Positions 13,562-31,157 of a stretch of 35,879 nucleotides of DNA are shown here, piece by piece (the first letter of the stretch is position 1; the number at the start of each line of letters is the position of its first letter). Position numbers and translations under genes: made by a program. The notes under the pieces are model-generated. The model did no database searches. It was not told where the DNA came from and saw only the letters and a program-made list of their open reading frames with translations. Where the stretch lies: assembly GCA_903957405.1 (NCBI GenBank), contig CAJBPC010000003.1, positions 1 to 35,879 on the forward strand. The letters run 5' to 3'. The stretch comes from an uncultured bacterium. GTDB lineage: Bacteria > Bacteroidota > Bacteroidia > Chitinophagales > Chitinophagaceae.

Positions 13562-14575
13562 TTATTTGGAGATCAGTTGCGCGAAGTAGTGCACCGTCCG
13601 CACCAGCTGGCTCACATAGCTCATCTCATTATCGTACCAGGCGACGGTCCGCACCATCTGGGTGTCGCCAACATGAATGACCTTTGTCTGCGTGGCATCA
13701 AAGAGCGAACCATAGGAGATGCCTATGACGTCACTGCTCACGATTTCGTCCTCCGTATAGCCAAAGCTCTCATTGGCTGCGGCTTGCATTGCGGCGTTGA
13801 CCTCTTCGACGGTGACTTTCTTTGAAAGCACCGTTGTCAGTTCTGTCAGCGAACCGGTGAGTGTCGGAACCCGCTGTGCGGTGCCGTCAAGCTTGCCCTT
13901 AAGGCTTGGGAGCACCAATCCGATGGCCTTGGCTGCGCCGGTGCTGTTCGGAACGATGTTCTGTGCAGCGGCACGGGCCCGGCGAAGGTCTCCTTTAGGG
14001 TGAGGGGAATCGTGGGTGTTCTGGTCGTTGGTATAAGCATGTACGGTCGTCATCAGACCGGCCATGATGACATAGTTGTCTTCCAGCACCTTGGCCATCG
14101 GAGCAAGGCAGTTCGTGGTACAGGATGCACAACTGATGATCGTCTCACTGCCATCCAATACATCGTGGTTAACATTATAGACGATGGTCTTCAGGTCGCC
14201 GGTGGCCGGTGCTGAGATGACCACTTTCCGGGCACCCGCAGTGATATGTGCGGAAGCCTTGTCCTTGTCTGTGAAAAAACCCGTGCATTCCAACACCACA
14301 TCCACATCATGCGCACCCCACGGAATCTGTGCCGGGTCTCTTTGAGCATAGATCATGACCTCTTCACCATTCACGGTGATGGACTGCTCCGAAGCCTTCA
14401 CATCTGCATCAAAGCGGCCCTGGGCGGTATCGTATTTCAACAGATGCGCCAGCACCTTCGGACTCGTCAGGTCGTTGATGGCAACCACATCGATGCCTTG
14501 CATATTATAAATCTGGCGGTACACGAGTCTGCCGATACGTCCAAATCCGTTGATGGCTACTTTTACTGTGCTCAT
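13562..14575 (-). CDS. gapA: Glyceraldehyde-3-phosphate dehydrogenase, type I
   Basis: The enzyme oxidises glyceraldehyde 3-phosphate to 1,3-bisphosphoglycerate. The 337-residue product has the Rossmann motif [13 protein letters not shown] and Asp35 in AINDLTSP, which is typical of NAD preference. The catalytic cysteine is C152 in [13 protein letters not shown] and the catalytic histidine is H179 in [11 protein letters not shown]. The C-terminal [16 protein letters not shown] is canonical. The active-site motif reads SCASCTTN where SNASCTTN or SAASCTTN is more usual, a small variation. A TActTTCG box at 14612-14619 could be its -7 element. Confidence 0.97.
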
Positions 14576-14758
14576 AGCTGAAAACTGTGTTTAGTCGTTT
14601 TAAAAAGTACACGAAAGTAAAGAATTGATGTTTACCCATAAGGTGATTTTTTACAGGATCAACCCTCCCAGGGGGCAACCCCGCTGGAAATCGCCCTGTC
14701 AAGTGACATCCTGTGGATTTTACAAGAATATAAAAGTACAGGATTCTTTCATGAAAAA

Positions 14759-14790
14759 TTTTGATGAAATACCTCAGGGTCTTATCTTTG
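14759..14790 (+). promoter_or_regulatory. Promoter of tRNA-Glu, near-perfect Bacteroidota consensus
   Basis: TTTTG (14759-14763), a spacer of exactly 19 nt, and TATCTTTG (14783-14790) match the primary sigma-factor consensus of Bacteroidota. Transcription would start about 7 nt later, roughly 9 nt before the tRNA 5' end. Confidence 0.85.
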
Positions 14791-14805
14791 CACACCTTTA
14801 AACAA

Positions 14806-14880
14806 GGCCCGTTGGTCAAGCGGTTAAGACGCCTCCCTTTCACGGAGGAATCACGAGTTCGATTCTCGTACGGGTCACCA
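14806..14880 (+). tRNA. tRNA-Glu (anticodon UUC)
   Basis: The gene folds into a standard cloverleaf. The acceptor stem is GGCCCGT with ACGGGTC (one G-T pair), the anticodon stem CCTCC/GGAGG with loop CTTTCAC and anticodon TTC at the central positions, and the T-arm CGAG-TTCGATT-CTCG. The CCA end is encoded. It has its own promoter upstream and a terminator 4 nt after its end. Confidence 0.97.
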
Positions 14881-14884
14881 GACA

Positions 14885-14910
14885 AACCAGGCATTCCGCC
14901 TGGTTTTTTT
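14885..14910 (+). terminator. Rho-independent terminator of tRNA-Glu
   Basis: A perfect 8-bp stem, AACCAGGC / GCCTGGTT (14885-14892 and 14898-14905), with a 5-nt loop runs directly into a T-run ending at 14910. Confidence 0.92.
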
Positions 14911-15231: not shown

Positions 15232-18200
15232 ATGAAAACAACGAATGAAGCCCGGATGGGTATCGTTCCGAAGTTCCCTTTCAGAAAGGAGAACATCATT
15301 TTCGTATTCTTATCCGCCATCATCGCAGGAATGGCATCGATCCTTCTCGTGCAGAGATTCCTGGCACTACCCATCGATTACGCTGATTTCCTGGTCGGCA
15401 ACATGAGCTGGCATGGACAGACAAGGCTTCAGGACATCGTCAGCCTGCCGGCCTTTGTCATAGGATTTATCCTCGCCGGCCGGATCAGTATCAAAATTTT
15501 CTCAGACATCTCGCTGGCAGGCGGACAAGTGTATGAGAATGAACTCACCCAAGTACTCTCATGGTGGCTCATCCCAATGGCCGGACTCTTCGGAGGACTC
15601 CTCAGTCAGCAACCGACGGCCATGCTCTTCACGCTTCCCCTGGCACTTGCCGGACTGATCGCGACGGTCACGGCAGCACACCTGAACCTCCGACACCGGC
15701 AGCTCATGGCCACCGAGATCGGCACAGGCGTGCTGGCAGCCATGATGTTGGCAATCTTACCGGCAGGCATCTCCGCCCTCCTGGACCGTCTGCAGGCCTT
15801 CCCCCTCATGCCGGGCATCAGGGGTGGGATGCAACTCATTTTCTTCACATACCTGGCAGCCTGCATGCTGTTTTTTTACCTGGTGGCGAAGAAACCCGAA
15901 CTCTACAAAAAGCATCTCGCACAGGTAGTCGTGATTCCGCAGGCCGCAATCATACTTTTCTACCTGCTCATCATCCCTGACATGCACGTTGGTGAAACCG
16001 GACAATATGCGATTCCCTTCAGGGAATGGCTGCCGCTGTTGAGCATTGCACTCATGGGGATCGCGGGAAGAGACCTCTTCCAGAGATGGAAACAGTACAA
16101 GGATGCCGAGAACAATGACCTCGGCAAGCTATGCTCGCCTTGGGCCATCTTTGCGGTTGTCATCCTGCTCAAGACCGGAACGACTTCGCCTCCCGTGATC
16201 TCTTCAGATGATTTCCAATATGGTGAAAGCCTTTTAGGCTGGTGGAGCTACCGAGAGTTCGGCATGGTTCCTTACATCGATTATTTCCCGCCCAATGGAC
16301 TCTTCGTCGATGATTTGGCAGGCTTCTTCTCTTGGGTGTTTTTCGACGGCACGGCGGGTACGATCGATGAATCGCTACGGCTCATCATGACATTGACCCT
16401 GCTCGCTGCATTCATCGGTCTGCACAAAGCCACCAGGAGCATCGGCCTGTCGCTCGTGTCGGTATTGTTTTTTGCCTACAGCAATATGTACTGGAACAGT
16501 CTGAACTTTTTGCTTCTCGTGCCGCTTTTCACCCTTTTTCTGAAATATCCCGCAGATCCCGATTCCAGAAAATGGCTGCTGGCATGGCCTGCAATCGGTA
16601 TTCTACTGGTCCTGCTCGCACCCTCTCAGGGTTATATTTTCCTGTTGGCATCCCTGCCCGCCCTCATATACCACCTGCGGCACGCCGTTGCTGGAAAGCT
16701 ATCGAAAAAAACCATCTATATCACAGCCGGCATCGGACTGCTGAGCCTCGCTACACCCATACCCCGGATGCTTTACAGTGCCATTCGCCATTTGGTTGAG
16801 AAAATTGCCATCTATCCTCTTAGTTTCGGGACCGACTGGACAAAGGGCTATCTCACCGTTGCCGGCAATGACATCCCGTTGCTGAATTACATCCTGCTGG
16901 ACTTCTTCAGGATGAGTTGGATATGGGTCCTGTTGGCCGGATGCATCATATTCATGTTACTGATCCATAAAAGACGGCACTGGCAATACCTGGCACTCGT
17001 CGCATTGCCTGCGACATTGTTCATCCTGCTGATGACAGGTTATGCCATGGGTAGAATGGATATCCTCAACTCCTCCGGGCCCGGCATCCTAAGCAGTTTT
17101 TCCCTCACGATCCTCCTACCATTGTTGCTGGCGCCACTGCTCGCCAGATACCAAAAGATCCTGATGGCATCACTCATCGCATTTTTCTGTGCGGGAATTG
17201 GCAATCACCATCTCGGCTGGAGTGGACTGGGCAACGCATTGGAAAAAAACGAGGCTTTCAACCTCGCCGCTGCCGGGAAGATCGGAATCAACAACGTCGG
17301 ACTTGCGGAAATAGACCCACAGCATGCCGACAGACTCCTTCGCGTGAACGCCAACCTAAAAAAATACCTGAGGTACAGGGAACCCTACCTCGACCTCACC
17401 GGCAATAATGCGCATTACATGTATTTCGACAGACCCCCTGCCATGTCACTGACCGCACCCGTGAACCTGGTGTCTATTGCGCAACAGGAAAGGGAAGTGT
17501 CCAGGCTCAGGCAGGATCCGCCACAAATAGCCTTGCTGATGGCCGATAACAAAAGGGTTGGCGAGGGCAAACTGGCACTCAGGAACCATATACTCTATCG
17601 CTTTGTGCTATCAAGGTATCGGGCAGAACTGCACGACGGATATGTCTTCGCCTTTCTCGATACGGCAAGGCTTTCCACTGCCGCCATGACATTCATGCCC
17701 AGTGACCGAACCGATTCGGCATGGCTGAAAGGTGTGCACAGAAGACTTCCAGCAGTGATCATCAGGGATACCCTCGCCATAAAATTCCTGCGAACAGGAG
17801 ACAGGATCATTCTGCCTGACGGAAAGCCCGCACAGATCGGCAGGATCCTGCCTAAAGAGCAGGTGGTATGGCTTGACGGGAATTATTTTTCCCCGACCGC
17901 TTTTGATTCACCCAACCCCGTGCGGGTTATACTTGATGATTCCAGAAAGGCCGAACTGTCATGCCGACTGATGCAGCTGGCATGCTCCGACGAAGACCTG
18001 GCCCAGCTGCCGGTGACATGGGGACGATCCGCGAACAGCCTTGACAATCGGATGACACTGGTCCACACTTTCGATACCGGCAAGATCATATTGAAAAACA
18101 TCCGTTTCGAAAAGGGAGGATATCAACCCATGGATGACTCATCCTACATGGAGTTCCAACTTGCCGGAGCCGCCCTGAACGGCAAGCAAGCCGGACTGCT

Positions 18201-18483
18201 GAGTTTTGATTTCACGTCGATCGCAGCTGACTTGCCGGCACGCCGCATGCGCATCTCCTGGCTATCGGATGACAACAAGGAATGCGGAGCCGGTCAAAGC
18301 CTGATGATGACGGCCGCCAACGGCAGGCTGATCGTGCCGCTCGACGGATTCCCTTCGTGGCTCAATGCGAAAAAAATCTCAGCCATTCGCATCGAAATGG
18401 ATGAAACACCCGGGAGCAGTGCTTTCAACATCGCAAATATCCGTCTGGAACAGCGGATCATGACGACGACAGGGCTTGACTGA
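15232..18483 (+). CDS. Large polytopic membrane protein, GT-C glycosyltransferase-like core
   Basis: The 1083-residue product has three visible parts. Residues 1 to about 322 hold about nine hydrophobic segments and no recognised motif. Residues 324-660 begin with an acidic loop, SSDDFQYGESLLGWW (D326, D327), followed by GMVPYIDYFPPNG (344-356) and then about eight more membrane helices. An acidic pair in the first outer loop followed by a G-PY-D-P-G motif is the usual opening of GT-C fold glycosyltransferases (PMT/ArnT/GT39-GT83 type), which transfer sugars from polyprenyl-phosphate donors on the outer face. Residues 670-1083 are hydrophilic and presumably periplasmic. It is flanked by the tRNA terminator and its own terminator, so it is probably monocistronic. 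Acceptor and donor are unknown, and a role in the adjacent polysaccharide locus is not shown. Confidence 0.6.
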   Translation: MKTTNEARMGIVPKFPFRKENIIFVFLSAIIAGMASILLVQRFLALPIDYADFLVGNMSWHGQTRLQDIVSLPAFVIGFILAGRISIKIFSDISLAGGQVYENELTQVLSWWLIPMAGLFGGLLSQQPTAMLFTLPLALAGLIATVTAAHLNLRHRQLMATEIGTGVLAAMMLAILPAGISALLDRLQAFPLMPGIRGGMQLIFFTYLAACMLFFYLVAKKPELYKKHLAQVVVIPQAAIILFYLLIIPDMHVGETGQYAIPFREWLPLLSIALMGIAGRDLFQRWKQYKDAENNDLGKLCSPWAIFAVVILLKTGTTSPPVISSDDFQYGESLLGWWSYREFGMVPYIDYFPPNGLFVDDLAGFFSWVFFDGTAGTIDESLRLIMTLTLLAAFIGLHKATRSIGLSLVSVLFFAYSNMYWNSLNFLLLVPLFTLFLKYPADPDSRKWLLAWPAIGILLVLLAPSQGYIFLLASLPALIYHLRHAVAGKLSKKTIYITAGIGLLSLATPIPRMLYSAIRHLVEKIAIYPLSFGTDWTKGYLTVAGNDIPLLNYILLDFFRMSWIWVLLAGCIIFMLLIHKRRHWQYLALVALPATLFILLMTGYAMGRMDILNSSGPGILSSFSLTILLPLLLAPLLARYQKILMASLIAFFCAGIGNHHLGWSGLGNALEKNEAFNLAAAGKIGINNVGLAEIDPQHADRLLRVNANLKKYLRYREPYLDLTGNNAHYMYFDRPPAMSLTAPVNLVSIAQQEREVSRLRQDPPQIALLMADNKRVGEGKLALRNHILYRFVLSRYRAELHDGYVFAFLDTARLSTAAMTFMPSDRTDSAWLKGVHRRLPAVIIRDTLAIKFLRTGDRIILPDGKPAQIGRILPKEQVVWLDGNYFSPTAFDSPNPVRVILDDSRKAELSCRLMQLACSDEDLAQLPVTWGRSANSLDNRMTLVHTFDTGKIILKNIRFEKGGYQPMDDSSYMEFQLAGAALNGKQAGLLSFDFTSIAADLPARRMRISWLSDDNKECGAGQSLMMTAANGRLIVPLDGFPSWLNAKKISAIRIEMDETPGSSAFNIANIRLEQRIMTTTGLD

Positions 18484-18549: not shown

Positions 18550-18600
18550 GAAGGATCCTTCCCGTATGGGCATTTCATACAGAAAGGATCCTTCTTTATT
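18550..18600 (+). terminator. Terminator after the GT-C-like gene
   Basis: An 11-bp perfect stem (GAAGGATCCTT 18550-18560 with AAGGATCCTTC 18584-18594) encloses a second 5-bp stem (GTATG/CATAC, 18564-18568 and 18576-18580) and is followed by TTTATTTT. It lies 66 nt past the stop and isolates the gene from the polysaccharide locus. Confidence 0.85.
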
Positions 18601-18608
18601 TTCGGTTA

Positions 18609-18625
18609 ATACTAACCGTTAGTAT
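18609..18625. promoter_or_regulatory. Palindrome upstream of the first heparinase gene
   Basis: ATACTAAC-C-GTTAGTAT is perfectly symmetric (8-bp arms, one central base). It lies after the terminator and 120 nt before the start codon of the lyase gene. An operator for the plus-strand arm of the locus is inferred from position and symmetry. Confidence 0.4.
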
Positions 18626-18745
18626 CACGCAGGCTGCGCAACGATGGTAAACGCGACATGCTCAGAGGATAGCGAGGATCGCGAAAACCCGATTTTTCTT
18701 TTTCACCCCCATGTTGTAATTTTTACCTTCAAACCATTCCTCCAC

Positions 18746-20635
18746 ATGAAGCCATCCCTGAAAACCTGCATGCTGTTATTTTTTATGTATCTGAGCGGCG
18801 CGCTGCTGCAAGCCCAGGAAGGACCCGTGGCAGCCGATTTCAAGATGCCCCAACATCCGAGGATCCTCCTGTTTGCCGGCGAGGAGCAGGGCATTCGGAA
18901 TGCCGTATCCGGGGATCCGGAATGGCAGGCCATCCATGAGGCCATCCTGAGGGAGTCGGATAATATCATCGGACTGGAACCCATCAAACGCATACAGATC
19001 GGAAGGCGCCTGTTGGACAAATCCCGGGAAGCGCTGCGAAGGGTCTTCATGCTCTCGTACGCATCCAGGACGACCGGCGAAAAAAAATATTTCGTCAGGG
19101 CGGAAAAGGAGATGCTCGATATTGCGGCATTCAGCGACTGGAACCCGTCGCATTTCCTTGATGTTGCGGAGATGACCATGGCCATGGCCATTGGATACGA
19201 CTGGCTGCATGACAAACTGTCGGCGGCGTCGAAGACAGCCATCCGCGACGCGATCATGAAGAAAGGCCTGGAGCCCTCTATGGAGCCGCGTTACAGCAGT
19301 TGGCTGAAGGCCGAGCACAACTGGAATCAGGTATGCAACGCCGGCATGACCTATGGCGCCATGGCGCTCTACGAGGATCATCCCGTCTTCGCCAGGAATA
19401 TCATCAACAGAGCCATCGGGTCGATCGTGCTGCCCATGAAGGATTACGGCCCCGACGGCGTCTACCCTGAGGGGTACGGTTACTGGGGTTACGGCACCAG
19501 CTTCAACGTGATGTTCCTCAGTGCCATTGAGAAGCTATTTGGAAAAGATTTCGGACTGACCGGCGCACCCGGATTCCTTCAGTCCGGCAGGTTCATGGAG
19601 TTCATGACCGGCCCTTCCGGCAGCCCCTTCAATTATTCGGATGCCGGGAATAACGGAGGATTTCATCCCGCCATGTTCTGGATCGCGGATAAGGTCGGCG
19701 ACCCTTCTATCCTATGGGAAGAACGCAGATTTTTGAAAAATTACGGAGTCGACAGGCTCGTGGGCGACAGACTGTTACCGGCCATCATGCTTTGGCGCAA
19801 CGGACTGAAGATGGACAAGATCACGGAGCCGAAAATAAATATGTGGGTCGGCATGGGAAAGAATCCCGTCGCCATGATGCGTACCTCATGGACAGATCCG
19901 AATGCGATCTACCTCGCGATGAAAGGCGGTTCGGTATCCGTCAACCATGCACACATGGATATCGGATCATTCATCATGGAGGCCGATGGGGTGCGATGGG
20001 CGATGGACTTCGGCATGCAGAATTATGAATCCCTGGAATCCAAAGGCATACAACTTTTCGGAAGGGCGCAGAACGCTCAAAGATGGAGTGTGTTCCGCCT
20101 CACCAACCTTGTCCACAACACATTGGCGGTGGACAACCAGCATCAGATCGTCACAGGCACGGCGCCGATCGTTGCGCATAGCTCAGCCCCGGCATTCATG
20201 CACGCCGTCACCGACCTCTCAGAGATCTACAACGGGCAGGTGGCAAAGTCTGTACGCGGCATCGCCCTCGTCAACAAGCGGTTTGTGGTGGTACGCGACG
20301 AGGTCAAGACACTCGACCGGGAGACGACCATCCGATGGACCATGCTCACCCCGGCGGATGTGAAGATCTCCGGACCTGACAGGGCGATACTGACAAAAGA
20401 CGGAAAGACCATGCTGCTGCAAGTGGACGCACCCGGCAAAATGCAGATGCGCACTTGGTCCACGGATCCGCCAAACAGTTATGATGCCCCAAACCCGGGC
20501 ACCACACTCGTGGGATTCGAAGTGAAAGTGCCGGCAAATACCGAAACGGCCTTCACGGTGAAGCTGATCCCAGGAGGCAAGGCAGGCAAGGCGAAGATGA
20601 AGGTCCAACCATTGGACAGCTGGAAAAACCATTGA
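18746..20635 (+). CDS. Heparinase II/III family polysaccharide lyase
   Basis: The 629-residue product has a signal peptide (MKPSLKTCMLLFFMYLSGALLQAQ) and an N-terminal alpha/alpha toroid. A C-terminal beta-sandwich typical of heparinase II/III-type lyases (PF07940) follows. Likely active-site regions are HNWNQVCNAG (191-200), PEGYGYWGYG (241-250, with candidate catalytic Tyr) and NHAHMDIGSF (400-409). The frame continues upstream to ATG 18644, but residues before 18746 do not look like a signal peptide and ATG 18746 gives one directly. Such enzymes cleave uronate linkages by beta-elimination; the family (PL12/15/17/21 or an unclassified relative) cannot be fixed by eye. It is first of three lyase genes on this strand. 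Confidence 0.85.
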   Translation: MKPSLKTCMLLFFMYLSGALLQAQEGPVAADFKMPQHPRILLFAGEEQGIRNAVSGDPEWQAIHEAILRESDNIIGLEPIKRIQIGRRLLDKSREALRRVFMLSYASRTTGEKKYFVRAEKEMLDIAAFSDWNPSHFLDVAEMTMAMAIGYDWLHDKLSAASKTAIRDAIMKKGLEPSMEPRYSSWLKAEHNWNQVCNAGMTYGAMALYEDHPVFARNIINRAIGSIVLPMKDYGPDGVYPEGYGYWGYGTSFNVMFLSAIEKLFGKDFGLTGAPGFLQSGRFMEFMTGPSGSPFNYSDAGNNGGFHPAMFWIADKVGDPSILWEERRFLKNYGVDRLVGDRLLPAIMLWRNGLKMDKITEPKINMWVGMGKNPVAMMRTSWTDPNAIYLAMKGGSVSVNHAHMDIGSFIMEADGVRWAMDFGMQNYESLESKGIQLFGRAQNAQRWSVFRLTNLVHNTLAVDNQHQIVTGTAPIVAHSSAPAFMHAVTDLSEIYNGQVAKSVRGIALVNKRFVVVRDEVKTLDRETTIRWTMLTPADVKISGPDRAILTKDGKTMLLQVDAPGKMQMRTWSTDPPNSYDAPNPGTTLVGFEVKVPANTETAFTVKLIPGGKAGKAKMKVQPLDSWKNH

Positions 20636-20761
20636 AAGCCACCCTGCCAGTCCCGCATCTCCTAGTGTGCACAGCATAAGCGGACAAGTTGGTACGACAC
20701 CACCTTGCAGCGGATTTTTCATCATCCATAAAGAAAAGCATCAGCATAAGAACCCTTCCAT

Positions 20762-23527
20762 ATGAACAGGATTTTTTCACGCCCTATTCGGGCCGCCAGG
20801 TTCGCATGGACCACCACAATGGTCATCCTGATTTTTTCCGGGACCATGACAGCACAACGGGTGCATCCGCATATCCTTGTACGACCCGAGGACAAGCCGG
20901 TCATCCTGAAAAAAATCAGTGAACAAGACTGGGCGAGGCTGGTGTATGACGAGATGCGGAAAGAAATCGCCCCGTATGTTGTCCGCCACCGCACCGACCC
21001 TGAATGGATCCTTAGCCGGTACCTCATGAACCGCATTCCGGGCAAACGATACACCCAATTCATTTCAGATGCCGAAGGAACGGCACTGACGGGATATGCC
21101 GGTGATGCGCCCTTCCCCACAGTTCGCGTTGCGCCCCATAAGCGTCCACCGATAAGCGCGGACGGGTACGGCTACAAGATGCCCGCCATAGAAGAGCTCC
21201 TGCCCTACGACACATCCATGACGATGATGATGCAAAGCACTGCGCCCGGAGGGAGAATGGAAAGGGTGGATCCGCAGACCTATGTGGACAACATCAACGG
21301 AGGCATCAACGAACTCGCCCTGCAGGCATCCGTGATCTACTGGCTCAGCGGGGATGAATCATACGCGCGGTTTGCAGCGGATATCCTCGTGCAATGGGCC
21401 AGGGGCGCCTACCACCAGTCACCCATCACGGGACCTTGCCGCACGGGTTTCCTTTCGATACAGACGCTGGGCGACGGCAGCTATGAGGCCATGCCGCTGA
21501 TACACGACTTCCTGTATGACTACCTAAGGAAAAATAAATATGAGACGAAATGGTTCGAGCCCGTCTTCGACAAGATGGCACACACGATGACCTTCAGGGG
21601 ATTCTGGAACAATAATTGGTTCGCGGCGCAAAGCATCATGATGGTTTTCTCCGCGCTCGCGCTCGAAGACGAGAGCCGGCGGGATTTCTACCTCGACTTC
21701 TACCTCTCGAAAGACACCATCAGCGGCGCATGCGGGCACCTCGCCCTGCCATCCGTAGTGAGCAAATGGCTCACCCCCGACGGACACTGGAAAGAACCCG
21801 GCGGATACCACAATTTTCCAGTGGGCAATCTGCTTCTGTCTGCAGTCGCCATGGAAAAAAACGGACATGATGTCTTTCGCCGATTCCCCGAACTGTTCAA
21901 GGCGTCGCATGTGATGCTCAAATATGCATTCCCCAACCTCATGAACCCCACATTCGGAGACACCGGCCCGTCATCGCAGAGTCCGGGATCATTGGAGATC
22001 GGAATGGCAATGGCGGAAAAATATCATGACACATCAGCAAGGCAACTGGCTTCGGTCCTGCAGGTGTTGATCGATAACAAACGCTATGAGAGAAGATCGG
22101 CGGGACTGTACGGACTGCTGACCCACCTGCCCGAACTTCCGAAAGCAGACACTAACGGTTACGCATGGCCGAGGAGCGGGGAGCTTGATTTCGCGAAGGC
22201 CTACCTTCAGCGGAACGGTACCGATAAACAGTCCGGGCTGATGTACATCGTACAGGGCGGCACATACAACCACAACCATGCGAACGGCATGTCCGTCGAG
22301 TTGTACGGTGCCGGCATGATCATGGGTCCAGACCCCGGAAACGGCCCCACATACGAGGCTCCGCTGCACGTACAATACTACACGCAGTGGGCCGCACACA
22401 ACACCGTCACCGCCGGCGGCGTGTCATCACCCATACCGGTCTTCAAAGGCGGAGGTGGCACAAAGCAGATCGGAGCGATCTCCCTGAAGGCGATGGAGCC
22501 CATGGCGGGAAAGGATGCCGTCTCCCCCAACCATTCATTCACCGATACCAGGTACAAGGACAAAGCAACGGGAGCGCTTCAGCAAAGAACGCTTGCCATC
22601 ATCCGTACCAGTCCGACGACCGGTTACTATACCGACATATACCGTTCCGCACATCCCGGCAGCAACGAATACGTATACCACAACATAGGGAACGCATTCC
22701 AGTGGCTCGATTCGGCGAGGATGCCGCTGCGCTCGGTTCCGACAGACTTCCCCCTGAGTAAAAAACCCATTGACCCTCCCGGATTCCGATTTATAAAAAA
22801 CATGCAGTCCATCGGTAGATCCGATAGGGGTGTGATCGCTTCCTTCAGCATCAGGGGAGACGATGCAGCGGAGAAAAATATGCAGGTGCATTTCGCTGCA
22901 GCAAAAGGCAGGACCTATTACAATGGATTGGCCCCCGAGGCGAAGACGACCGATCCTGCTTACCGAAAATGGAAGATCCCGACCATCATCGCACGTCAGG
23001 AAGGAGAGGCATGGAAGCGACCATTCGTGGCAGTGTACGAACCCTTCACGGGTGAAGGCAAGCACACGATCGAAGAAATATCCGTCCTGGAATTATCTGA
23101 CCCCGGAGACTTCACCGTACTGCAGGTGAGGCACCGCGACAACGGCAAGGAACTGATCTTCCAGTCAGTGGATGGGACGAGATCGTATCAAAAAGGAGCA
23201 TGGCGGTTCACCGGCCGATTCGGTGTCGTCGGACTGAAAGGAGACCAGCCCGAATACATGTACATCGGGAGCGGATCTGCCTTGGCATACGGGACATGGT
23301 CGATACAGATCCCTTCAGGTGAAGGCGCGGCGGAGCTGAGATTTTCCAACGGCCATGTGCACATCAGCTGCAACCAGGAAACAAGCATCGCGATGGATGG
23401 CAAAAAGCCAGGATCCGTCAGACTTTTGAAAAATGGCGTCGGCATACCCCTTGCGATGCAACAAACAATAAGCGGCGTACGCTTCTCCGTACCCGCCGTT
23501 TCTGACGCACTGTTGATCATAGAATGA
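20762..23527 (+). CDS. Large heparinase II/III-like lyase
   Basis: The 921-residue product has a signal peptide (hydrophobic stretch MVILIFSGTMTA) and a long helical N-terminal region. That region includes WNNNW (282-286) and GGYHNFPVGN (347-356). A heparinase II/III-type sandwich domain around GGTYNHNHANGMSVELYGAG (499-518) contains the conserved histidines H504 and H506, with a C-terminal beta-rich region of about 300 residues. It shares only the general fold with the preceding gene and is about 290 residues longer. It starts 126 nt after that gene and 15 nt before the PL8 gene, consistent with one operon. The substrate is unknown beyond a uronic-acid polymer. Confidence 0.82.
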   Translation: MNRIFSRPIRAARFAWTTTMVILIFSGTMTAQRVHPHILVRPEDKPVILKKISEQDWARLVYDEMRKEIAPYVVRHRTDPEWILSRYLMNRIPGKRYTQFISDAEGTALTGYAGDAPFPTVRVAPHKRPPISADGYGYKMPAIEELLPYDTSMTMMMQSTAPGGRMERVDPQTYVDNINGGINELALQASVIYWLSGDESYARFAADILVQWARGAYHQSPITGPCRTGFLSIQTLGDGSYEAMPLIHDFLYDYLRKNKYETKWFEPVFDKMAHTMTFRGFWNNNWFAAQSIMMVFSALALEDESRRDFYLDFYLSKDTISGACGHLALPSVVSKWLTPDGHWKEPGGYHNFPVGNLLLSAVAMEKNGHDVFRRFPELFKASHVMLKYAFPNLMNPTFGDTGPSSQSPGSLEIGMAMAEKYHDTSARQLASVLQVLIDNKRYERRSAGLYGLLTHLPELPKADTNGYAWPRSGELDFAKAYLQRNGTDKQSGLMYIVQGGTYNHNHANGMSVELYGAGMIMGPDPGNGPTYEAPLHVQYYTQWAAHNTVTAGGVSSPIPVFKGGGGTKQIGAISLKAMEPMAGKDAVSPNHSFTDTRYKDKATGALQQRTLAIIRTSPTTGYYTDIYRSAHPGSNEYVYHNIGNAFQWLDSARMPLRSVPTDFPLSKKPIDPPGFRFIKNMQSIGRSDRGVIASFSIRGDDAAEKNMQVHFAAAKGRTYYNGLAPEAKTTDPAYRKWKIPTIIARQEGEAWKRPFVAVYEPFTGEGKHTIEEISVLELSDPGDFTVLQVRHRDNGKELIFQSVDGTRSYQKGAWRFTGRFGVVGLKGDQPEYMYIGSGSALAYGTWSIQIPSGEGAAELRFSNGHVHISCNQETSIAMDGKKPGSVRLLKNGVGIPLAMQQTISGVRFSVPAVSDALLIIE

Positions 23528-23542
23528 ACCCCAAAAAAGAAA

Positions 23543-25672
23543 ATGAAAATTAAAATCCGCTCCGCACTTCCCATCGCTTTTAGGTGGGCATTTGCAATCC
23601 TGATGACATGGTTCGCCGATGGAAACCTACAGGGCCAATCTGTCAACGATCTCGAGACCATCAGAAAAAGGATCATCGCCGACCAGCTTGCGCCATCAGC
23701 GGGCAAGGTGGAAGCCATGCAGTATGCGTCCTCCCAGCTTCCAGACGGGAGCTGGGCCGACATCAACTATACCGACACCTCACGCACCGGCTTCCAGCAT
23801 CGTTTTCACTTGGATCGGATGCTGTATCTATCCCGTGCATTCAGAAAGCCCGGCTCCCCGCTGTATGGCGACCCCGCCGTCAGGAAGGCTGCCATGCAGG
23901 CATTGGACCACTGGATCGCAAAGGATTACCAGTGCCAGAACTGGTGGTGGAATGAGATGGGGACACCCGGTTCGATGATCAACACCTTGCTGATATTGGA
24001 CGAGGAACTCTCACCGGCACAACGGAAAGGAGGGCTTAAGATCGCTGCAGGAGCGCGTTTCGACGGCTTCGGCGCAAGGCCGGGAGGCGACCTGATACAG
24101 ATCGCGGGCATGATCGGAAAACAGGCGCTGTTCAAGCGCGACATCGCACTGTTCGACAGCGTCGTGAAAATCATGACAAAAGAGATCAAAGTGTCGGAAG
24201 GAAGGGGTTTGCAGGCCGACATGAGCTTTCACCACAGGACGGACAACGTCATCTCGACCCTTACTTACGGTACCGGCTACGCGCAGACATTCGCATACTG
24301 GGCCTCCAGGATCGCGGGCACGGGATTCTCGTTCCCGGAAGCTTCGACAAAGCTCCTGACCGACTACTATCTGGATGGCATTTCAAAGTCGATGGCATTC
24401 GGGAAATACCCCGATGTCGGTGCCCGAAACCGCGACATGAGCCGAAGGAATGAGGAACACAAAGCATCCTCGGAAACCCCCGCCAACCTTGCCAGGGTGT
24501 CATCCTACCGGAAAAAAGAACTCGAAGAGCTGGTGCGCATCCGAAAAAACGAGCTGAAACCCGACCTGTCATGGAGCCGATTTTTCTGGCATTCGGAATA
24601 TTACACGCACCAGCGCCCGGGATGGTTCGCATCCGTCCGCATGCATTCATCCCGCCAGTACAGCATGGAATCTCCCCATAATGAGGAAGGTTTGCTTCAC
24701 CATCACTTCGCGGATGGATCCAACTTCGTGAGTATGTCGGGAAATGAATATGACGGCATCTTCCCGGTATGGGACTGGCAGAAGATCCCGGGCGCCACCA
24801 TCGTCCAAAAGCCTGCACTGCCTCACTGGAAAGAGATCGCGAAAAAAGGGCTTTCTGATTTTGTGGGCGGTGTCACGAACGGAAGGATCGGAGCGGCAGC
24901 GGAGGATTTCAAGAGTCCTCATGACCCATTGTCTGCACGCAAGGCATGGTTCTTTTTTGAAGATGAGTACGTGTGCCTCGGTGCAGGCATCCGATCCGAT
25001 GCGGCGTATCCGGTATCCACCACCATCGACCAGCGCAACCTTGTCGGGGATGTTCAGATCATAACGGGAAAGGCTAACCTAAAACTGGAAAAAGGCGTGT
25101 CGTCCATGAGGCGCGTGACAGGCATCACCCATAACGGCATCGCCTATGTGTTTCCGGTGATGACCGGCGTACAGGTCAGTGCCGCCATGGCGAAGGGGAA
25201 CTGGCGCAGGATCAACCACCAGGACTGGGCGACGGAAGAAACCGTGGAGAAGGAAGTGTTCACCCTTCGAATAGACCACGGCATCAAGCCGGCGTCTGCA
25301 GTTTATGCGTACATGGTCGTACCGGGTGCAAAGGCGGGGGTAGCACAAAGCTTCAGTGGCCGCAGGCTGCGCATCCTGTCGAACACGCCCTCCCTGCAAG
25401 CCGTTCGGCATGACGGGAAAGGCATTGTCCAGGCGGTGTTCTACAGCCCCGGAACAGTGACGATCGCACCGGGAATGACGCTTACGGTGAGTGGCCCTTG
25501 CATGCTGATGGTGGAAATGGAAGGTGTGAATCTGCGCAGGATGACCGTTTCCGATCCCTCCAGAAAACAGAGATCGCTAACCGTCGAGGTCACCGCACAG
25601 GATACAGTACCCCGCACCGTTAGCCTTCCTGAAGGGATCATGGCAGGCAGCAGCGTGGATGTGTCGCTCTGA
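23543..25672 (+). CDS. Polysaccharide lyase family 8 (chondroitin AC/hyaluronate/xanthan lyase type)
   Basis: The 709-residue product has a signal peptide (to about LQGQ) and the complete PL8 layout: alpha/alpha barrel, then super-sandwich and C-terminal domains. NWWWNEMGTPGSMINTLLIL (133-152) is the aromatic-patch motif. SFHHRTDNV with TYGTGY (228-246) supplies the candidate catalytic His231 and Tyr242. GARNRDMSRR (293-302) supplies the arginines. EYDGIFPVWDWQKIPGAT and KAWFFFEDEYVCLGAGI match the sandwich domain of Pedobacter chondroitinase AC as I recall it. The loop that holds the catalytic Asn in that enzyme (GANKSD) reads GARPGGDL here (177-184). It is last of the plus-strand genes and ends 4 nt from the opposing lyase gene. 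Confidence 0.9.
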   Translation: MKIKIRSALPIAFRWAFAILMTWFADGNLQGQSVNDLETIRKRIIADQLAPSAGKVEAMQYASSQLPDGSWADINYTDTSRTGFQHRFHLDRMLYLSRAFRKPGSPLYGDPAVRKAAMQALDHWIAKDYQCQNWWWNEMGTPGSMINTLLILDEELSPAQRKGGLKIAAGARFDGFGARPGGDLIQIAGMIGKQALFKRDIALFDSVVKIMTKEIKVSEGRGLQADMSFHHRTDNVISTLTYGTGYAQTFAYWASRIAGTGFSFPEASTKLLTDYYLDGISKSMAFGKYPDVGARNRDMSRRNEEHKASSETPANLARVSSYRKKELEELVRIRKNELKPDLSWSRFFWHSEYYTHQRPGWFASVRMHSSRQYSMESPHNEEGLLHHHFADGSNFVSMSGNEYDGIFPVWDWQKIPGATIVQKPALPHWKEIAKKGLSDFVGGVTNGRIGAAAEDFKSPHDPLSARKAWFFFEDEYVCLGAGIRSDAAYPVSTTIDQRNLVGDVQIITGKANLKLEKGVSSMRRVTGITHNGIAYVFPVMTGVQVSAAMAKGNWRRINHQDWATEETVEKEVFTLRIDHGIKPASAVYAYMVVPGAKAGVAQSFSGRRLRILSNTPSLQAVRHDGKGIVQAVFYSPGTVTIAPGMTLTVSGPCMLMVEMEGVNLRRMTVSDPSRKQRSLTVEVTAQDTVPRTVSLPEGIMAGSSVDVSL

Positions 25673-25676
25673 GGTG

Positions 25677-27752
25677 CTATTGCATGATGATCGTCTTGTC
25701 CCTACCGATTTTTTCCTGGGCCTCCTGATTGCCGTTCCCTGCATATGCGTTGTTGCTTACGGACAGGTTGGTTGTCGCATGGGATTCGACACCGTATCCC
25801 GTATTGAACCTTATGACATTGTCATGGACTTTGACGTGCATTGACCCGCGGTGCAGGAATTCCATCATCACCCCGCTGCGGTCGTTTGCCTCTATGAGGT
25901 TTCTGGAAGCACTGATGTTCCGGCTTTCGGAAACCAGCAGACCGAAGTATCCGTTGCGGGCGATCTCGCAGTCTGTCACGGATGCGGTGTCGCAATGGTC
26001 AAGGGCAACGCCGCAGCCATAGGGAGATGTCACCAGCCGGCATCCGCTGACAAGGATATTCCTGACATGTCGGAGCAGCAGGTTATGCTGCAGTCTCGGG
26101 CCGGGGACGATGCTGCTCCCATTCTCACTGAAATCGCATCGATCGATCCTGACATGTTCCGCACCCGCGATATGTACCCCGTCGAAAGTGGCATTCCTGA
26201 CCGTCAGGTTGATGAGTGCGATGTTCTTCATCTGACCTTCGCGCAGGGCACGGAAGAGGATGCCTCCCCGATTGTAGCCGCTCTTGAAAGAGCGGTTCGT
26301 ATTCGGATCTGATCCCGGGTCGGTGCGGTTGGAAACCTCGATCACCAGGTCGCGGATGGTCACATCGTGCATGTCGATGTCAGCATTCACCATCGCTTCC
26401 CTCATACCAGAGGCAGGATCGAGGTGCAGGATCGTGTGAATCCCTTCGCCCCTGATCGTGATGCCGGATGGTATTTTCAATGTTTGAGGGAACGTGTGGA
26501 TGCCATTTTTCAAGACTAAAGAAAGACCTTTTCCGGAGAGCGCGTCGAGTGCCTGCTGGATGGATTGCCCGGGTTCCAAAATGACCGAGCCTGCGGGGAT
26601 TTCCATGTCCGATGGGACTGTTGTCGCACCGCTTATGTATGCGGTTTTAGAAGGCTTGGGAGCCCCCTTATTGGCCATTGGGGATGAGAATGACGCACGG
26701 ACTGCTGTCAGTACGCTCCGGCCGGCTTTCTGCCTCAATGAATCTGCTGCACGTTTCGTCCATGGCATCTCCACCCCTTTGGCGGCATAATGCCGATAGA
26801 CGTATTCATAATTATCCCGAAGCCGTTTTTCCCGTTCAGATATCGTGCAATAGCAATGCGGGTTTTCGCCGAAAAGGAAGCGAGCGGTGTATTCAAAGCC
26901 CAGGGCGATGCGGTCGTCACCGATGGAAAAGAGATCCACTCCTTGCGTGAAAGCGATGCGGGCCGCCCCGGAGAATTCATCCAGTCCCAGCTGCACATGG
27001 CCCTGATCGCGAGGACTCTCCTGACACTGTCCGTTTGGGTAGATGTACTTGAAGATGCCGCCATTGACGGGTGCATGCAGGAAATTATCGACGGCATTGC
27101 TGAATATTTCACGGTTATCGGTGAAGATGCCGATGGCGAGTAAGGAATGGATGATGGCACCATTCCAGTTGCCATTCGCCGTAGGGAAATATTGCCGGAG
27201 CAGGGGATAATGGACTGTCATCAGCATGTGGCTGAAAGCATCGATGGATGCTGGTTTCCAGCCGGCATCGGTGTAGCGCAGGATCTCTGCGGCATTGCAG
27301 AAAAGATAGCCTGTCAGTCCGGCCAGAAGTTTCGCATCGTTGTAGTCAAAATCCCATATCCTTGATGACCATGCGTTGATGATACCAATGGACTTGTCCG
27401 CATAGCGGCGCTCCCCCGTCAGGTACCACATGAGTGCGCAATCGTACGCCATCCGCGCACCATTCATGAGGTCCTCCCCTCCGATATTGGGTTTGGCGTA
27501 TGGACCGCGCAGGACATGGGTGTGCGGTCTGATGGTAAATTCCTTGTCGGCAGATTCCTTCATCCTTTGGAACGCAGCCTTGTAGGGTTCACGACCTTCT
27601 GCGACAAATCTTTTCATCTCGGCAAGGTCTTTGGCAGACTGGTCGATACCGGGATGCAGGAAACCCTGCCCCTTAAGGGTAAGGGCGTTGAAAGTCATGA
27701 TCATCATCAGGATGACTGAAAATACTGAGGGAAGAATTGATCGCTTCATCAT
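25677..27752 (-). CDS. Alginate-lyase-type domain fused to right-handed beta-helix
   Basis: The 691-residue product (ATG 27752) has a signal peptide (MMKRSILPSVFSVILMMIM) and an N-terminal alpha/alpha domain of the alginate lyase family (PF05426). The domain shows GEDLMNGARMAYDCALMWYL, GNWNGAIIHSLLAIGIF (194-210) and YPNGQCQESPRDQGHVQLGL. A linker is followed by a C-terminal parallel beta-helix (about 385-691) starting VILEPGQSIQQALDAL, with repeated turns such as NIALINLTVRNATFDGVHIA and NILVSGCRLVTSPYGCGVAL. The frame extends to ATG 27794, but that codon lies in the loop of a terminator-like hairpin. The domain pair suggests two lyase or epimerase activities in one secreted protein. It is last of the minus-strand arm. 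Confidence 0.85.
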   Translation of the reverse strand: MMKRSILPSVFSVILMMIMTFNALTLKGQGFLHPGIDQSAKDLAEMKRFVAEGREPYKAAFQRMKESADKEFTIRPHTHVLRGPYAKPNIGGEDLMNGARMAYDCALMWYLTGERRYADKSIGIINAWSSRIWDFDYNDAKLLAGLTGYLFCNAAEILRYTDAGWKPASIDAFSHMLMTVHYPLLRQYFPTANGNWNGAIIHSLLAIGIFTDNREIFSNAVDNFLHAPVNGGIFKYIYPNGQCQESPRDQGHVQLGLDEFSGAARIAFTQGVDLFSIGDDRIALGFEYTARFLFGENPHCYCTISEREKRLRDNYEYVYRHYAAKGVEMPWTKRAADSLRQKAGRSVLTAVRASFSSPMANKGAPKPSKTAYISGATTVPSDMEIPAGSVILEPGQSIQQALDALSGKGLSLVLKNGIHTFPQTLKIPSGITIRGEGIHTILHLDPASGMREAMVNADIDMHDVTIRDLVIEVSNRTDPGSDPNTNRSFKSGYNRGGILFRALREGQMKNIALINLTVRNATFDGVHIAGAEHVRIDRCDFSENGSSIVPGPRLQHNLLLRHVRNILVSGCRLVTSPYGCGVALDHCDTASVTDCEIARNGYFGLLVSESRNISASRNLIEANDRSGVMMEFLHRGSMHVKVHDNVIRFNTGYGVESHATTNLSVSNNAYAGNGNQEAQEKIGRDKTIIMQ

Positions 27753-27780
27753 GTGTCGGATGCTGGGGTTAGGAAAACGA

Positions 27781-27815
27781 AAAAGGTCATGCATCCATCA
27801 GACACATGACCTTTT
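27781..27815 (-). terminator. Terminator between the lipoprotein gene and the lyase/beta-helix gene
   Basis: On the minus strand, AAAAGGTCATG pairs perfectly with CATGACCTTTT (27805-27815 and 27781-27791) around a 13-nt loop and continues TCGTTTTCC. It sits 25 nt after the stop of the lipoprotein gene. It would end or attenuate the SusCD transcript and argues against the upstream start at 27794 for the next gene. Confidence 0.8.
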
Positions 27816-27839
27816 CCACTGATGCTTTGGGGTCGATCG

Positions 27840-28832
27840 CTATTTTGTGGTCATGTTATACCGGAGCATGCTGACGACCGCACTGCCGTTCACATTGACC
27901 GAGTTGATAAACACATAGGCCCTGAATTTCTTGTCGGCTGTTTCCACCCAAACACCAGCCTCTGCCCTCAATCCGGTGGCGAAATTGGAAGCGGTGGTGA
28001 GATCCACCTGCTGGAAGTCTTTGTCATCCACGTATATCCCGAATTGCAGACCCGCGAGGTTTCTATCCTGCAGGTTCCAAACTTTAAGAATCTTGCTGTT
28101 GTTGGATACGCCGGCCGGGAGTGTGACACCCGGGAGGTATGCAGGATCGGCGGCTGGGGCCACAAGACCGTGGGTGAATGCGACCGGTGTGGTTCTGTAG
28201 AGGTAAACCAGGTCGATGTTTGCAGCATTCGAAGCGGCGCTGGCGGCATTGTACACCGCCATGTCAGCGATGGAGATGAAGGCCATGTTGTTGTTCGAAA
28301 CGGCAAGGCCCTTTTTGATCTCCATCTTGGAAACGTCATAAGGGCCCATTTTATAGGTCGCGGTTTTGCCGTCAGAGCCAGTTGCGGTGAAAGTGAAGGA
28401 CACCTGTTTGCCCATGGCTTCCTGAGGGACGATGTAGAAATATCGCAGGGAAGCCGCATTCGTATCTACGCTGAAGGTCACTTTCGTACTGTTCCCTGTG
28501 GTTACCGACGGACTACCGACCGTCACAGGCACGTCCACACCGCTGGTGTTGGTGTAGTAGGACCGGTGTTCGAGGTAAGTCCCAGTAGCGCCAGGGATGG
28601 ATGCCTGCACTTCAGCGGAGGCGATCTTGCCGATGGATTTCGGGATGGCCATTGCATAGACGAACTCTATCGGGAGGGATACGATATTCGGCCCCAGCGT
28701 CCGTTTGATGCCATCGCTGGTGATGGTTGATATGGGATCGGGGATCTTGTATTCATCCTTCTCACAGGATGCGAACAGTCCTGCCATCAGCAAACCTGCC
28801 ATATATGTTCTGCACTTGATAATATTGAGCAT
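27840..28832 (-). CDS. Surface lipoprotein of the polysaccharide locus (DUF4466-like)
   Basis: The 330-residue product has a lipoprotein signal peptide (TYMAGLLMAGLFASC) and a beta-rich body with stretches such as DGIKRTLGPNIVSLPIEFVY, GTYLEHRSYYTNTSGVDVPV and AGVWVETADKKFRAYVFINS. From memory this resembles the DUF4466 proteins of Bacteroides polysaccharide loci, but the assignment needs a profile search. Its place after SusC, SusD and another lipoprotein suggests a cell-surface glycan-binding protein. No catalytic motif is seen. It is followed by a terminator. Confidence 0.75.
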   Translation of the reverse strand: MLNIIKCRTYMAGLLMAGLFASCEKDEYKIPDPISTITSDGIKRTLGPNIVSLPIEFVYAMAIPKSIGKIASAEVQASIPGATGTYLEHRSYYTNTSGVDVPVTVGSPSVTTGNSTKVTFSVDTNAASLRYFYIVPQEAMGKQVSFTFTATGSDGKTATYKMGPYDVSKMEIKKGLAVSNNNMAFISIADMAVYNAASAASNAANIDLVYLYRTTPVAFTHGLVAPAADPAYLPGVTLPAGVSNNSKILKVWNLQDRNLAGLQFGIYVDDKDFQQVDLTTASNFATGLRAEAGVWVETADKKFRAYVFINSVNVNGSAVVSMLRYNMTTK

Positions 28833-28853
28833 CTTTTTGACTTTGATGGGTGA

Positions 28854-29258
28854 TTATTGGACCTTGACAATGATCTTGTAGGCCTTTCTGACCTTTCTGT
28901 TTCCGGAGACGACGGTGTATGTCTTTGGATTTGCCAGATCGGAGAAGTCTACCTTCCCGACGATCTTAGGATCCAGCTTGCAATCCGAGGCAAGGGTGAA
29001 CTGAGGGTAGAGGTTTTTAAGATCGGTGCCGAAATTCACGGTCACGTCGATGGTCTGAGCCACCGTATCGATGATCGGCACCCCGTTGCGTACGGTTATG
29101 AAATCCGTTCCCAGCAACTCGAAGTTGCTGACGAAGCATTCCGCCCTTGTGGTGATCAGCAATCCATCCTCATCGACCGGAAGGTCTTTTTTGCATGCAG
29201 AGGCAAATGCTGCCAGCAGCAAGATTGCATAGAGTATGGTATTTTTAATACTTTTCAT
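28854..29258 (-). CDS. Small surface lipoprotein, DUF5018-like
   Basis: The 134-residue product has a lipoprotein signal peptide (ILYAILLLAAFASAC) and a single Ig-like beta domain with DVTVNFGTDLKNLYPQFTLA and ending YTVVSGNRKVRKAYKIIVK. This pattern recalls the N-terminal domain of DUF5018-type proteins, which usually sit just after SusD. It lies 28 nt after SusD and 21 nt before the next lipoprotein gene, in the same transcript. A spacer or accessory role in surface glycan binding is inferred. Confidence 0.7.
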   Translation of the reverse strand: MKSIKNTILYAILLLAAFASACKKDLPVDEDGLLITTRAECFVSNFELLGTDFITVRNGVPIIDTVAQTIDVTVNFGTDLKNLYPQFTLASDCKLDPKIVGKVDFSDLANPKTYTVVSGNRKVRKAYKIIVKVQ

Positions 29259-29286
29259 GTCAGTTGATTTTTTTAGGTATTACGGT

Positions 29287-31146
29287 TTAGCGCCAGGGGA
29301 TGTTTTGTGTCAGATTCGGGTTTCTGTCCCTTTCCGTTGGCGGGATCCTGAAGATGTAGTTCTGCTGGTACACCCTGTCGATCGTGTTTTGATAATACCG
29401 TTGTTGTTGTGCGCCCCATGTATCGATCCTCCATACGCCAACGCCTCCGGGAGGTCCCCATGTCTTTTCAATGGCCCTCCACCTGCGAAGGTCAAAACCG
29501 CGATGTCCTTCAGCGACGAGTTCGATGATGCGTTCTTGCTCTATGGCGTCAAAGAAGGCCTGTTTGCTGGCGAATTTATCCGCTTTCAGCGCCGGGAGGT
29601 TGCCCCTGGCGCGTATTTTATTCAGTCCGGCGACAGCATCCGCCAGCGGGCCGCTTACTTCGTTGCTGGCTTCGGCGTACATGAGGAATACATCTGCCAG
29701 GCGCATGACAGGCCAGGCGAAATCCCCTTCTGAACGTCCGAGTCCTTCATAGTTGCGGACAAATTTCCGGAAAATGTACCCGGAATTGGATCCATCCGTA
29801 TTGTACGAGATATATTTCACCCCGCCGATGGTGACGTTGGCTGCCCATGTCCGGTAGATGAACGGGGAGAAGCCTGTGGACTTCAGTGCGGTGAGTCCGA
29901 TGCACATCTCATAATCCCACAAGATGGAGGCCTTCATCCGGTAGTCACGGTTGGCGTAGGAGTTGGGGTTCACCGCGGAGTTGAGCGTTGTGCGTGCAGC
30001 AGCATTTGTCGTCGGATTCAATGGTATCAGCTTGGGGGCGAATTCGCCCGTTGTCGTCAGCTGATAGCGGTCGGCAATCTCATAGCGGGGTGAGGCCCAT
30101 GCTTGAGAGCCTTCGATGGTACGACCTGAGAAGTCCCGCATCAGCTCCTCGCCCTGTGATGGGTTGGTGGGGGTGCCTGAGTGGTTGAAAGCCATGATGA
30201 CTTCGGGATTGCCATTCGCCTTCGGTGTGAAGAGTTCGAAATAGTTCGGCAGGATGTCTGCTTTTCCGAGGGCGTCTATCTGACCCGGATCACCATTTTT
30301 ATAGAGGGTGAGACCGAAATCGTTCATCACGGATTTGAAATCGGCTGCGGACGCTGCGAAGGCCGTCTGTGCCTCACCTGAATTCTGCTGGAAGCCTTCG
30401 AGCTCAGGCCATCCGTTCTTCTTCCAGCTGCCCCAGTAGAGGTTTAGTTTTCCGCGGAATGCGAGGGCTGCGGGCTTGGCGGCACGCCCTACTCCTACCG
30501 CTTTAGCCGGCAGCTTTGCCACGGCGTAGTCGAAGTCGGCCATGATGGAGTCCTTCACCTGGCCGATCGGCAAGCGGGTGAGCTGGGTCACTTCACTGTT
30601 GTCGTATATGATCTTCCCGATATAGGGCACGTCACCCCACATGGAGATCAGCCTGAAGTAGGTCATTCCGCGCAGCAGCCTGGCCTCCGCAATGATCGTC
30701 TCGAGGTTGGCCAGGGATGCACCCGATGCATTGGGCAGCATCTTCAGCGTGATGTTCTCGATCACATAGTTCGCACGGTGTACCGATCCGTAGAGGTACT
30801 GGAAATACTTGTCGAAGCTTGCACCATAACCGGAAGGGTCATAGTTGCCGCCCTGATAGGCATCGCCCCTGAGGATGCTACCGCTCGTGGCGCTGGTGCC
30901 TCTGACGCGGGTGTATTCAGACTGCCCTTCGAAGTAGTAGTCACGGTCGAAGACCGCCCTGGCAGATGCGTAAGCCGACATCAGCGCAATGGTAGCATCC
31001 GCTTCCGTCTTCCAGAATACCGAGGCATCCAGCAAGCCGGTGGGTGTCTGATCAAGCAGCTCTTTCTTGCAGGAGACATGCATCAGCATGATCACGCCGA
31101 GAAAAAGGGTCGTGTATCTTTTCATATCGTTCATCGGAAATTTCAT
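29287..31146 (-). CDS. SusD/RagB family outer-membrane glycan-binding lipoprotein
   Basis: The 619-residue product is a SusD-type lid protein that captures oligosaccharides and delivers them to SusC. It has a lipoprotein signal (FLGVIMLMHVSC) followed by KKELLDQTPTGLLDASVFW, the usual SusD opening. Tetratricopeptide-like helices include HRANYVIENI and RLLRGMTYFRLISMWGDVPY. The C-terminal part has VMRLADVFLMYAEASNEVSG, NKIRARGNLPAL and EGHRGFDLRRWRAI, all diagnostic of PF07980/PF14322. Alternative starts are ATGs at 31134 and 31125. It begins 11 nt after the SusC stop. Confidence 0.95.
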   Translation of the reverse strand: MKFPMNDMKRYTTLFLGVIMLMHVSCKKELLDQTPTGLLDASVFWKTEADATIALMSAYASARAVFDRDYYFEGQSEYTRVRGTSATSGSILRGDAYQGGNYDPSGYGASFDKYFQYLYGSVHRANYVIENITLKMLPNASGASLANLETIIAEARLLRGMTYFRLISMWGDVPYIGKIIYDNSEVTQLTRLPIGQVKDSIMADFDYAVAKLPAKAVGVGRAAKPAALAFRGKLNLYWGSWKKNGWPELEGFQQNSGEAQTAFAASAADFKSVMNDFGLTLYKNGDPGQIDALGKADILPNYFELFTPKANGNPEVIMAFNHSGTPTNPSQGEELMRDFSGRTIEGSQAWASPRYEIADRYQLTTTGEFAPKLIPLNPTTNAAARTTLNSAVNPNSYANRDYRMKASILWDYEMCIGLTALKSTGFSPFIYRTWAANVTIGGVKYISYNTDGSNSGYIFRKFVRNYEGLGRSEGDFAWPVMRLADVFLMYAEASNEVSGPLADAVAGLNKIRARGNLPALKADKFASKQAFFDAIEQERIIELVAEGHRGFDLRRWRAIEKTWGPPGGVGVWRIDTWGAQQQRYYQNTIDRVYQQNYIFRIPPTERDRNPNLTQNIPWR

Positions 31147-31157
31147 TGTTGCAGGGT

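Follow-up and report, generated by a model that had tools for sequence, protein, structure and literature searches.

How is a protein to be read whose candidate catalytic loop, of the kind found in GT-C glycosyltransferases, lies behind nine additional helices? The question is raised by a gene at positions 15232-18483 of the window, i.e. the whole stretch of 35,879 nucleotides that was analysed. A first-pass annotation had described this layout as matching no GT-C subfamily familiar to it, with an acidic motif at residues 324-328, a G-PY-D-P-G motif following it, and about 410 soluble residues beyond the core. The extra N-terminal membrane module raises the broader question of whether a partner that hands over the donor can be built into a GT-C enzyme. 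The protein belongs to a conserved family of GT-C type that is new in the sense that none of the family libraries searched has a model for it. This family, with members of more than 1000 residues, is linked to a cassette of seven genes in Legionella, Pseudomonas, Azotobacter, Collimonas, Gallionella, and others, providing a testable route to a surface-glycan modification that lacks characterisation.

Gene structure and relatives

The reading frame is complete and intact, encoding 1083 residues on the forward strand; the parts of the gene, the tRNA, and the two hairpins described below lie on the same strand. A hydropathy scan over 19 residues yielded 17 hydrophobic segments, nine of which precede S324-S-D-D-F328, in agreement with the first-pass annotation; the last segment ends at residue 661, followed by a tail of 422 residues. 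The second motif was also located after the acidic one, as G344-x2-P347-Y348-x-D350-x2-P353-P354-N-G356 (16261-16299). Upstream lies a tRNA-Glu (TTC) gene (14806-14880), which together with GAPDH marks a boundary kept throughout the genus and is followed by its terminator hairpin (14884-14906; z -4.9). Downstream, a terminator-like hairpin (18550-18594; z -5.17) is followed by the T-rich run TTTATTTT. With strong hairpins on both flanks, the isolation of the gene by terminators held, and the gene is therefore probably transcribed alone.

The whole protein had no match in Pfam, NCBIfam, PADLOC, or the PDB sequences, and nothing of note in PHROGs. The curated Pfam model PMT_2/PF13231 did not match, and a comparison of profiles with two PMT_2 proteins of the window's genome found no relationship (probability 0.2%). 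Segments searched separately, including the N- and C-terminal ones proposed for this check, gave nothing above family cut-offs, and the core and C-terminal profiles revealed no relative of a solved structure by sequence. Across the libraries searched, no GT family was matched at the sequence level, nor did the Pfam, NCBIfam, and PDB searches return a known family of another function covering the full length.

To find relatives, a single genome of each species was scanned with search patterns that allowed for variation around the loop motif. Hand-made variants of this motif in the query alignment served only to widen the patterns and entered none of the later alignments, and every relative was confirmed by tblastn using the real window protein. 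The 22 loci so confirmed were mostly from Pseudomonadota, with full-length relatives 24-40% identical to the window copy. Hosts included Methylobacter, Gallionella, Burkholderiales, Legionella santicrucis, Azotobacter, Casimicrobiaceae, Pseudomonas, Amantichitinum, Azoarcus, Collimonas, and Cupriavidus, together with more distant alphaproteobacteria, Bdellovibrio, and fragments elsewhere. Within Bacteroidota, neither 121 near genomes nor two samples of about 400 genomes, drawn from the order and the phylum, yielded a full-length relative; when the protein alone was used as the query, genome and viral contigs gave none either, nor did plasmids searched by tblastn. A weak match in one genome (G062) was discarded, as it spanned 83 residues with four stops over acetolactate-synthase-type genes, and three weak hits of the profile (L059-L061) appear to be unrelated membrane proteins.

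Close full-length members measure 996-1159 residues and carry 8-11 predicted helices ahead of the acidic motif. The layout is thus shared by a conserved family, mostly in Pseudomonadota, and is neither a fusion accident nor a one-off. Identity to the window copy varied by part, being highest at residues 690-812 (36-54%) and amounting to 24-43% in the membrane core, 25-37% in the C-terminal domain, and 15-32% in the N-terminal module. Two shorter proteins from other Bacteroidota (L057, L058) share the core motif (D-x-F-H-E-G-E, P-F/Y-x-D, H-G) and the 690-812 region, but they have only 603-616 residues, with a short N-terminal membrane part and without the C-terminal extension. These short GT-C-like proteins also lack a Pfam family. 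In one Burkholderiales relative (L009:9893-10210), ~100 N-terminal residues are tandemly repeated, reflecting either a real duplication or an assembly artefact.

The N-terminal membrane module (residues 1-300; 15232-16131) comprises eight helices according to hydropathy and alignment, and its first loop is conserved at Y50, F53, V55, G56, W60, K/R65 (R65 in the window copy), and D68. A weak profile match to an O-antigen ABC permease (E 6e-4) probably reflects hydrophobic composition. An origin of the module as an internal duplication of the core was not supported by profile comparison. As a matter of speculation, the module might dock a flippase or a synthase.

The GT-C core and the C-terminal extension

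The membrane part of the core (residues 301-660; 16132-17211) was delimited with AlphaFold2 models and Foldseek, and comprises the first core helix, the acidic loop, and the remaining helices. In the alignment of 21 cores, D326, G331, E332, and G356 are invariant, while H329, R608, Y729, and Q752 are nearly so. S324-S-D-D-F328 (16201-16215) forms the acidic first loop of the core and is followed by Q329-Y-G-E332 (16216-16227), which reads H-F-G-E in the family, the near-invariant His being Gln in the window copy. Since these four residues are invariant and the full-length layout is kept in other phyla, the motif is more than a chance resemblance. GT-CA enzymes are marked by a conserved acid in the core's first external loop, and D326 was found there in 21/21 sequences. 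The placement of the catalytic loop right after the first helix of the protein, which is typical of GT-CA enzymes though not universal, is not seen here, as nine helices precede it.

AlphaFold2, run on the family alignment, gave a pLDDT of 76.9 and a pTM of 0.77 for the whole protein, and 83.7 and 0.84, respectively, for residues 295-818. When the core model was compared with the PDB by Foldseek, the 14 best chains were all GT-C (probability 1.00 to 0.82), namely AftA, ArnT (apo and with undecaprenyl phosphate), STT3 (yeast and human), DPY19, PglB, and PMT1, with AftA and ArnT at the top of the ranking; the 15th match was a transporter with a probability of 0.08. TM-scores to GT-C structures were modest (0.41-0.49, query-normalised, best five), which therefore places the family on a distant GT-C branch. 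The succession of a helix, the D326 loop, short helices, and a long helix in the model can be read as the GT-CA order, and a GT-CA fold of the membrane core is, at the level of predicted structure, shown by computation. The full-length model retrieved EmbA, EmbC, STT3, PglB, and AftA, together with several CBMs. The possibility that structure prediction would reveal no GT-C core was therefore not borne out, and there is support for a protein that combines such a core with extra N-terminal helices and a sizeable C-terminal part in the periplasm, and that falls into none of the curated families searched.

Beyond the last helix, residues 690-812 (17299-17667) form an alpha/beta periplasmic part with the motifs Y-L-D-L-T ... 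R-P-P ... Q-Q ... L-R ... L-Y-R-F, and are the best conserved part of the family. Because the shorter relatives L057 and L058 keep these residues, they belong to the core. With the core reaching ~812, the true C-terminal extension is confined to about 815-1083; of the claim of about 410 soluble residues beyond the core, the long tail stood, but its assignment to the extension as a whole did not. The C-terminal stretch is made up of ~120 core residues, then a beta domain of small size and a putative CBM-like sandwich of beta strands, rather than a single extra domain. Some relatives (L015, L025) lack the small beta domain (residues 815-905; 17674-17946) or have a shortened version of it. The beta sandwich (residues 915-1076; 17974-18459), predicted from Foldseek matches and secondary structure, is conserved at W930-G-R-S, W1010, and W1043. 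Foldseek matches of the C-terminal part were CBM86, CBM27, CBM28, CBM11, CBM22, and the EmbC C-terminal domain, with probabilities of 0.92-1.00 and E-values of only 0.003-0.12; CBM86, CBM27, CBM28, and the EmbC domain are those the sandwich resembles. Matches to viral proteins were mainly of beta-sandwich and capsid type.

A linked cassette in Proteobacteria

In the proteobacterial relatives, six partners recur: two GT2s, a DAO-type flavoenzyme, a Rossmann protein, a xylose-isomerase-like TIM barrel, and an SMR-like protein. One GT2 resembles ArnC/PgfS and the other dolichyl-phosphate hexose transferases; the SMR-like protein (118 residues) is similar to ArnE/ArnF and the TIM barrel to keto-sugar epimerases. 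The cassette adjoins the GT-C gene in eight loci, with six of six partners near the gene in L008, L009, L010, L011, L013, and L018, the SMR-like gene missing in L012, and the cassette of L007 cut by the contig end. The gene stands alone in Amantichitinum (L014) and Azoarcus (L015), each with a complete cassette elsewhere in the genome, and in Aquabacter (L023), where a divergent cassette with GtrA lies elsewhere. GtrA also replaces the SMR in Sulfitobacter (L024), making two alphaproteobacteria with GtrA. Cupriavidus (L025) has no cassette beside the gene and no clear flavoenzyme in its genome, so the window copy is not the sole orphan.

Compared with the Collimonas genes, the cassette partners are 62-91% identical, whereas the big protein reaches only 33-71%. 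The exchange of flippases at the same place and the stronger conservation of the partners fit a scheme in which a single lipid-linked donor is the product of the partners and the choice of acceptor falls to the big protein. In Salmonella gtr operons there is a like contrast: GtrA and GtrB are conserved, GtrC is variable, and the operons lie beside tRNA genes (PMC3688519). Both a linked polyprenyl-phosphate-sugar synthase and a linked flippase (GtrA or SMR), as in Gtr/Arn systems, were found for the family; in the window, the synthase is not adjacent. That a flavoenzyme, an epimerase, and a reductase are conserved together hints at an unusual sugar. A description of the cassette was not found in the literature, an observation that carries little weight given partial coverage. 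Some cassettes contain extra membrane proteins of about 530-770 residues (L008:15225-16901, L010:13195-14781, L007:15245-16888, L012:2831-7398); those that were scanned matched neither Pfam nor NCBIfam, and these proteins may be additional GT-C enzymes with other acceptors.

Proposed role, alternatives, and the window copy

The reading we favour, with a probability of roughly 80%, is that of an inner-membrane GT-CA glycosyltransferase using a polyprenyl-phosphate monosaccharide donor and decorating a surface polysaccharide, as the third component of a Gtr/Arn-type system. By analogy with other GT-C systems, the donor would be made by a GT2 synthase and flipped to the periplasmic face by SMR or GtrA. 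In the core's first loop, D326 (or D327) may act as the acceptor-activating or metal-binding acid, as GT-C precedent suggests, while the conserved His, Arg, and Tyr residues would hold the lipid phosphate and the sugar. On the same precedent, the CBM-like domain would hold the glycan acceptor, and the sugar would pass to the surface glycan from a lipid carrier exposed at the periplasmic side of the inner membrane. In Proteobacteria, the big protein would be the acceptor-specific third component next to the GT2 synthase and the SMR or GtrA flippase; the Bacteroidota copy, devoid of a cassette, would draw on the host's own lipid-linked sugars. A bolder extension, which we consider doubtful, is that the cassette edits the sugar, perhaps on the lipid (through the DAO flavoenzyme, the Rossmann reductase, and the TIM-barrel epimerase), that the GT-C protein founds a new CAZy family, and that the N-terminal module receives the donor from the flippase or the synthase. 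Such editing would resemble that of DprE1/DprE2 in manner, although the cassette enzymes are unrelated to them.

Several characterised systems share parts of this arrangement. ArnT (GT83), which works with ArnC and ArnE/F, has the GT-CA fold by structure comparison and finds ArnC-like and ArnE/F-like counterparts in the cassette; however, it has 537-541 residues in the structure library, about half the length of the window protein, with no detectable sequence similarity, and the nine pre-loop helices and the putative CBM-like domain are features of the window protein. GtrA/GtrB/GtrC likewise join a flippase, a polyprenyl-phosphate-sugar synthase, and a variable GT-C, with a divergent transferase and a tRNA-gene neighbourhood, whereas here there are two GT2 genes, three sugar-editing-type enzymes, a transferase of more than 1000 residues, and a window copy standing alone. 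AftA and EmbA/B/C are the best structural matches, the Emb chains having 1034-1078 residues in the library and a CBM, but they share no sequence similarity, and Emb uses decaprenyl-phosphate arabinose in mycobacteria. The GT136 enzyme ORF12 of Citrobacter youngae shows that a GT-C can bind its acceptor O-polysaccharide through a CBM at the C-terminus (PMC11127046). The present family resembles it in the GT-C core, in a C-terminal domain that is putatively CBM-like here, and in the three-component logic, but ORF12 differs in its size of about 650 residues, its 11 helices, a proposed catalytic D31 near the N-terminus, a MATE flippase, and a PRPP-derived donor (PMC11127046); by layout description the present family is set apart from GT136, only the C-terminal CBM-like domain agreeing.

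The window copy itself departs from residues common to at least 12 of 13 full-length members, through H329Q, R616G, and the loss of NxxHDGGG at 773-780. Residues 996 (18217-18219) and 1062 (18415-18417) are both Ser, in place of Cys in nearly all relatives, suggesting the joint loss of a periplasmic disulfide. The loss of H329, NxxHDGGG, and R616 means that this copy may have another specificity or donor, or reduced activity. An acquired GT-C without a donor pathway, now decaying or repurposed, would account for these active-site changes in an otherwise conserved family and is compatible with the family-level explanation; the cassette flavoenzyme was also not found in the window's 88%-complete genome, in a search with positive controls. 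This state of the copy is nevertheless rather unlikely, considering that the 3.2 kb frame is intact, D326, D327, E332, and R608 are kept, codon use matches the neighbours, the gene has its own terminator, and other contigs of the genome encode a GtrA (over the Pfam cut-off) and an ArnC-like GT2.

Could the enzyme instead act on lipid-diphosphate oligosaccharides, as a polysaccharide polymerase, a ligase, or an oligosaccharyltransferase? The presence of STT3 and PglB among the structural matches speaks for this, but the top-ranked AftA and ArnT use lipid-phosphate monosaccharides, and the linked genes encode polyprenyl-phosphate-sugar-synthase-like GT2s and SMR/GtrA flippases rather than Wzx or PglK, leaving it improbable.

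The tree places the window copy within Pseudomonadota, as the sister of the Methylobacter and Gallionella proteins (support 99/100). This nesting, and the lack of a full-length relative in several hundred Bacteroidota genomes, would also be expected if the assembly were chimeric and the gene belonged to a proteobacterium. The chance of this is slim, however, since a single contig spans the conserved GAPDH/tRNA-Glu pair and the SusC/SusD locus, and GC3 and codon use equal those of neighbouring genes. GAPDH and tRNA-Glu, at 13562-14880, are genus-wide neighbours, found together in 14/14 same-genus stretches (the tRNA inverted in one). The region beyond the tRNA is variable, the 11 long-enough stretches differing there from the window and among themselves. 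As judged from sequence, the window copy was apparently acquired horizontally from Proteobacteria, and an old acquisition into a variable site is the simplest reading; a recent transfer was rejected, as the gene and its neighbours agree in GC, GC3, and codon use. Least credible is a membrane scaffold or transporter resembling GT-C enzymes by chance, to which the lack of a sequence family, the modest TM-scores, and the weak permease match of the N-terminal module would be congenial, but which is contradicted by the sharp fall from GT-C matches to transporters, the invariant loop acids, and the cassette linkage.

The adjacent locus (18644-35580) encodes two heparinase II/III-like lyases, a chondroitinase-AC-like lyase, an alginate-lyase/beta-helix protein, DUF4466, SusD, SusC, and a GH88-like protein, a content that suggests the use of a uronic-acid polysaccharide; its SusC/SusD genes can also be read as a sign that the window comes from Bacteroidota. 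The gene does lie beside a polysaccharide locus, as the first-pass annotation had noted, but this SusC/SusD lyase locus serves degradation, not synthesis, and its uptake and lyase genes lend no support to the first-pass interpretation. Membership of the GT-C gene in it was rejected, given the strong terminator between them and the glycan-synthesis genes neighbouring the relatives; as far as the data show, the adjacency is coincidental. Just before the heparinase-like gene, at 18609-18625, lies the perfect 17-base palindrome ATACTAACCGTTAGTAT, which occurs once in the window (0.02 expected by chance with up to 3 mismatches) and looks like an operator.
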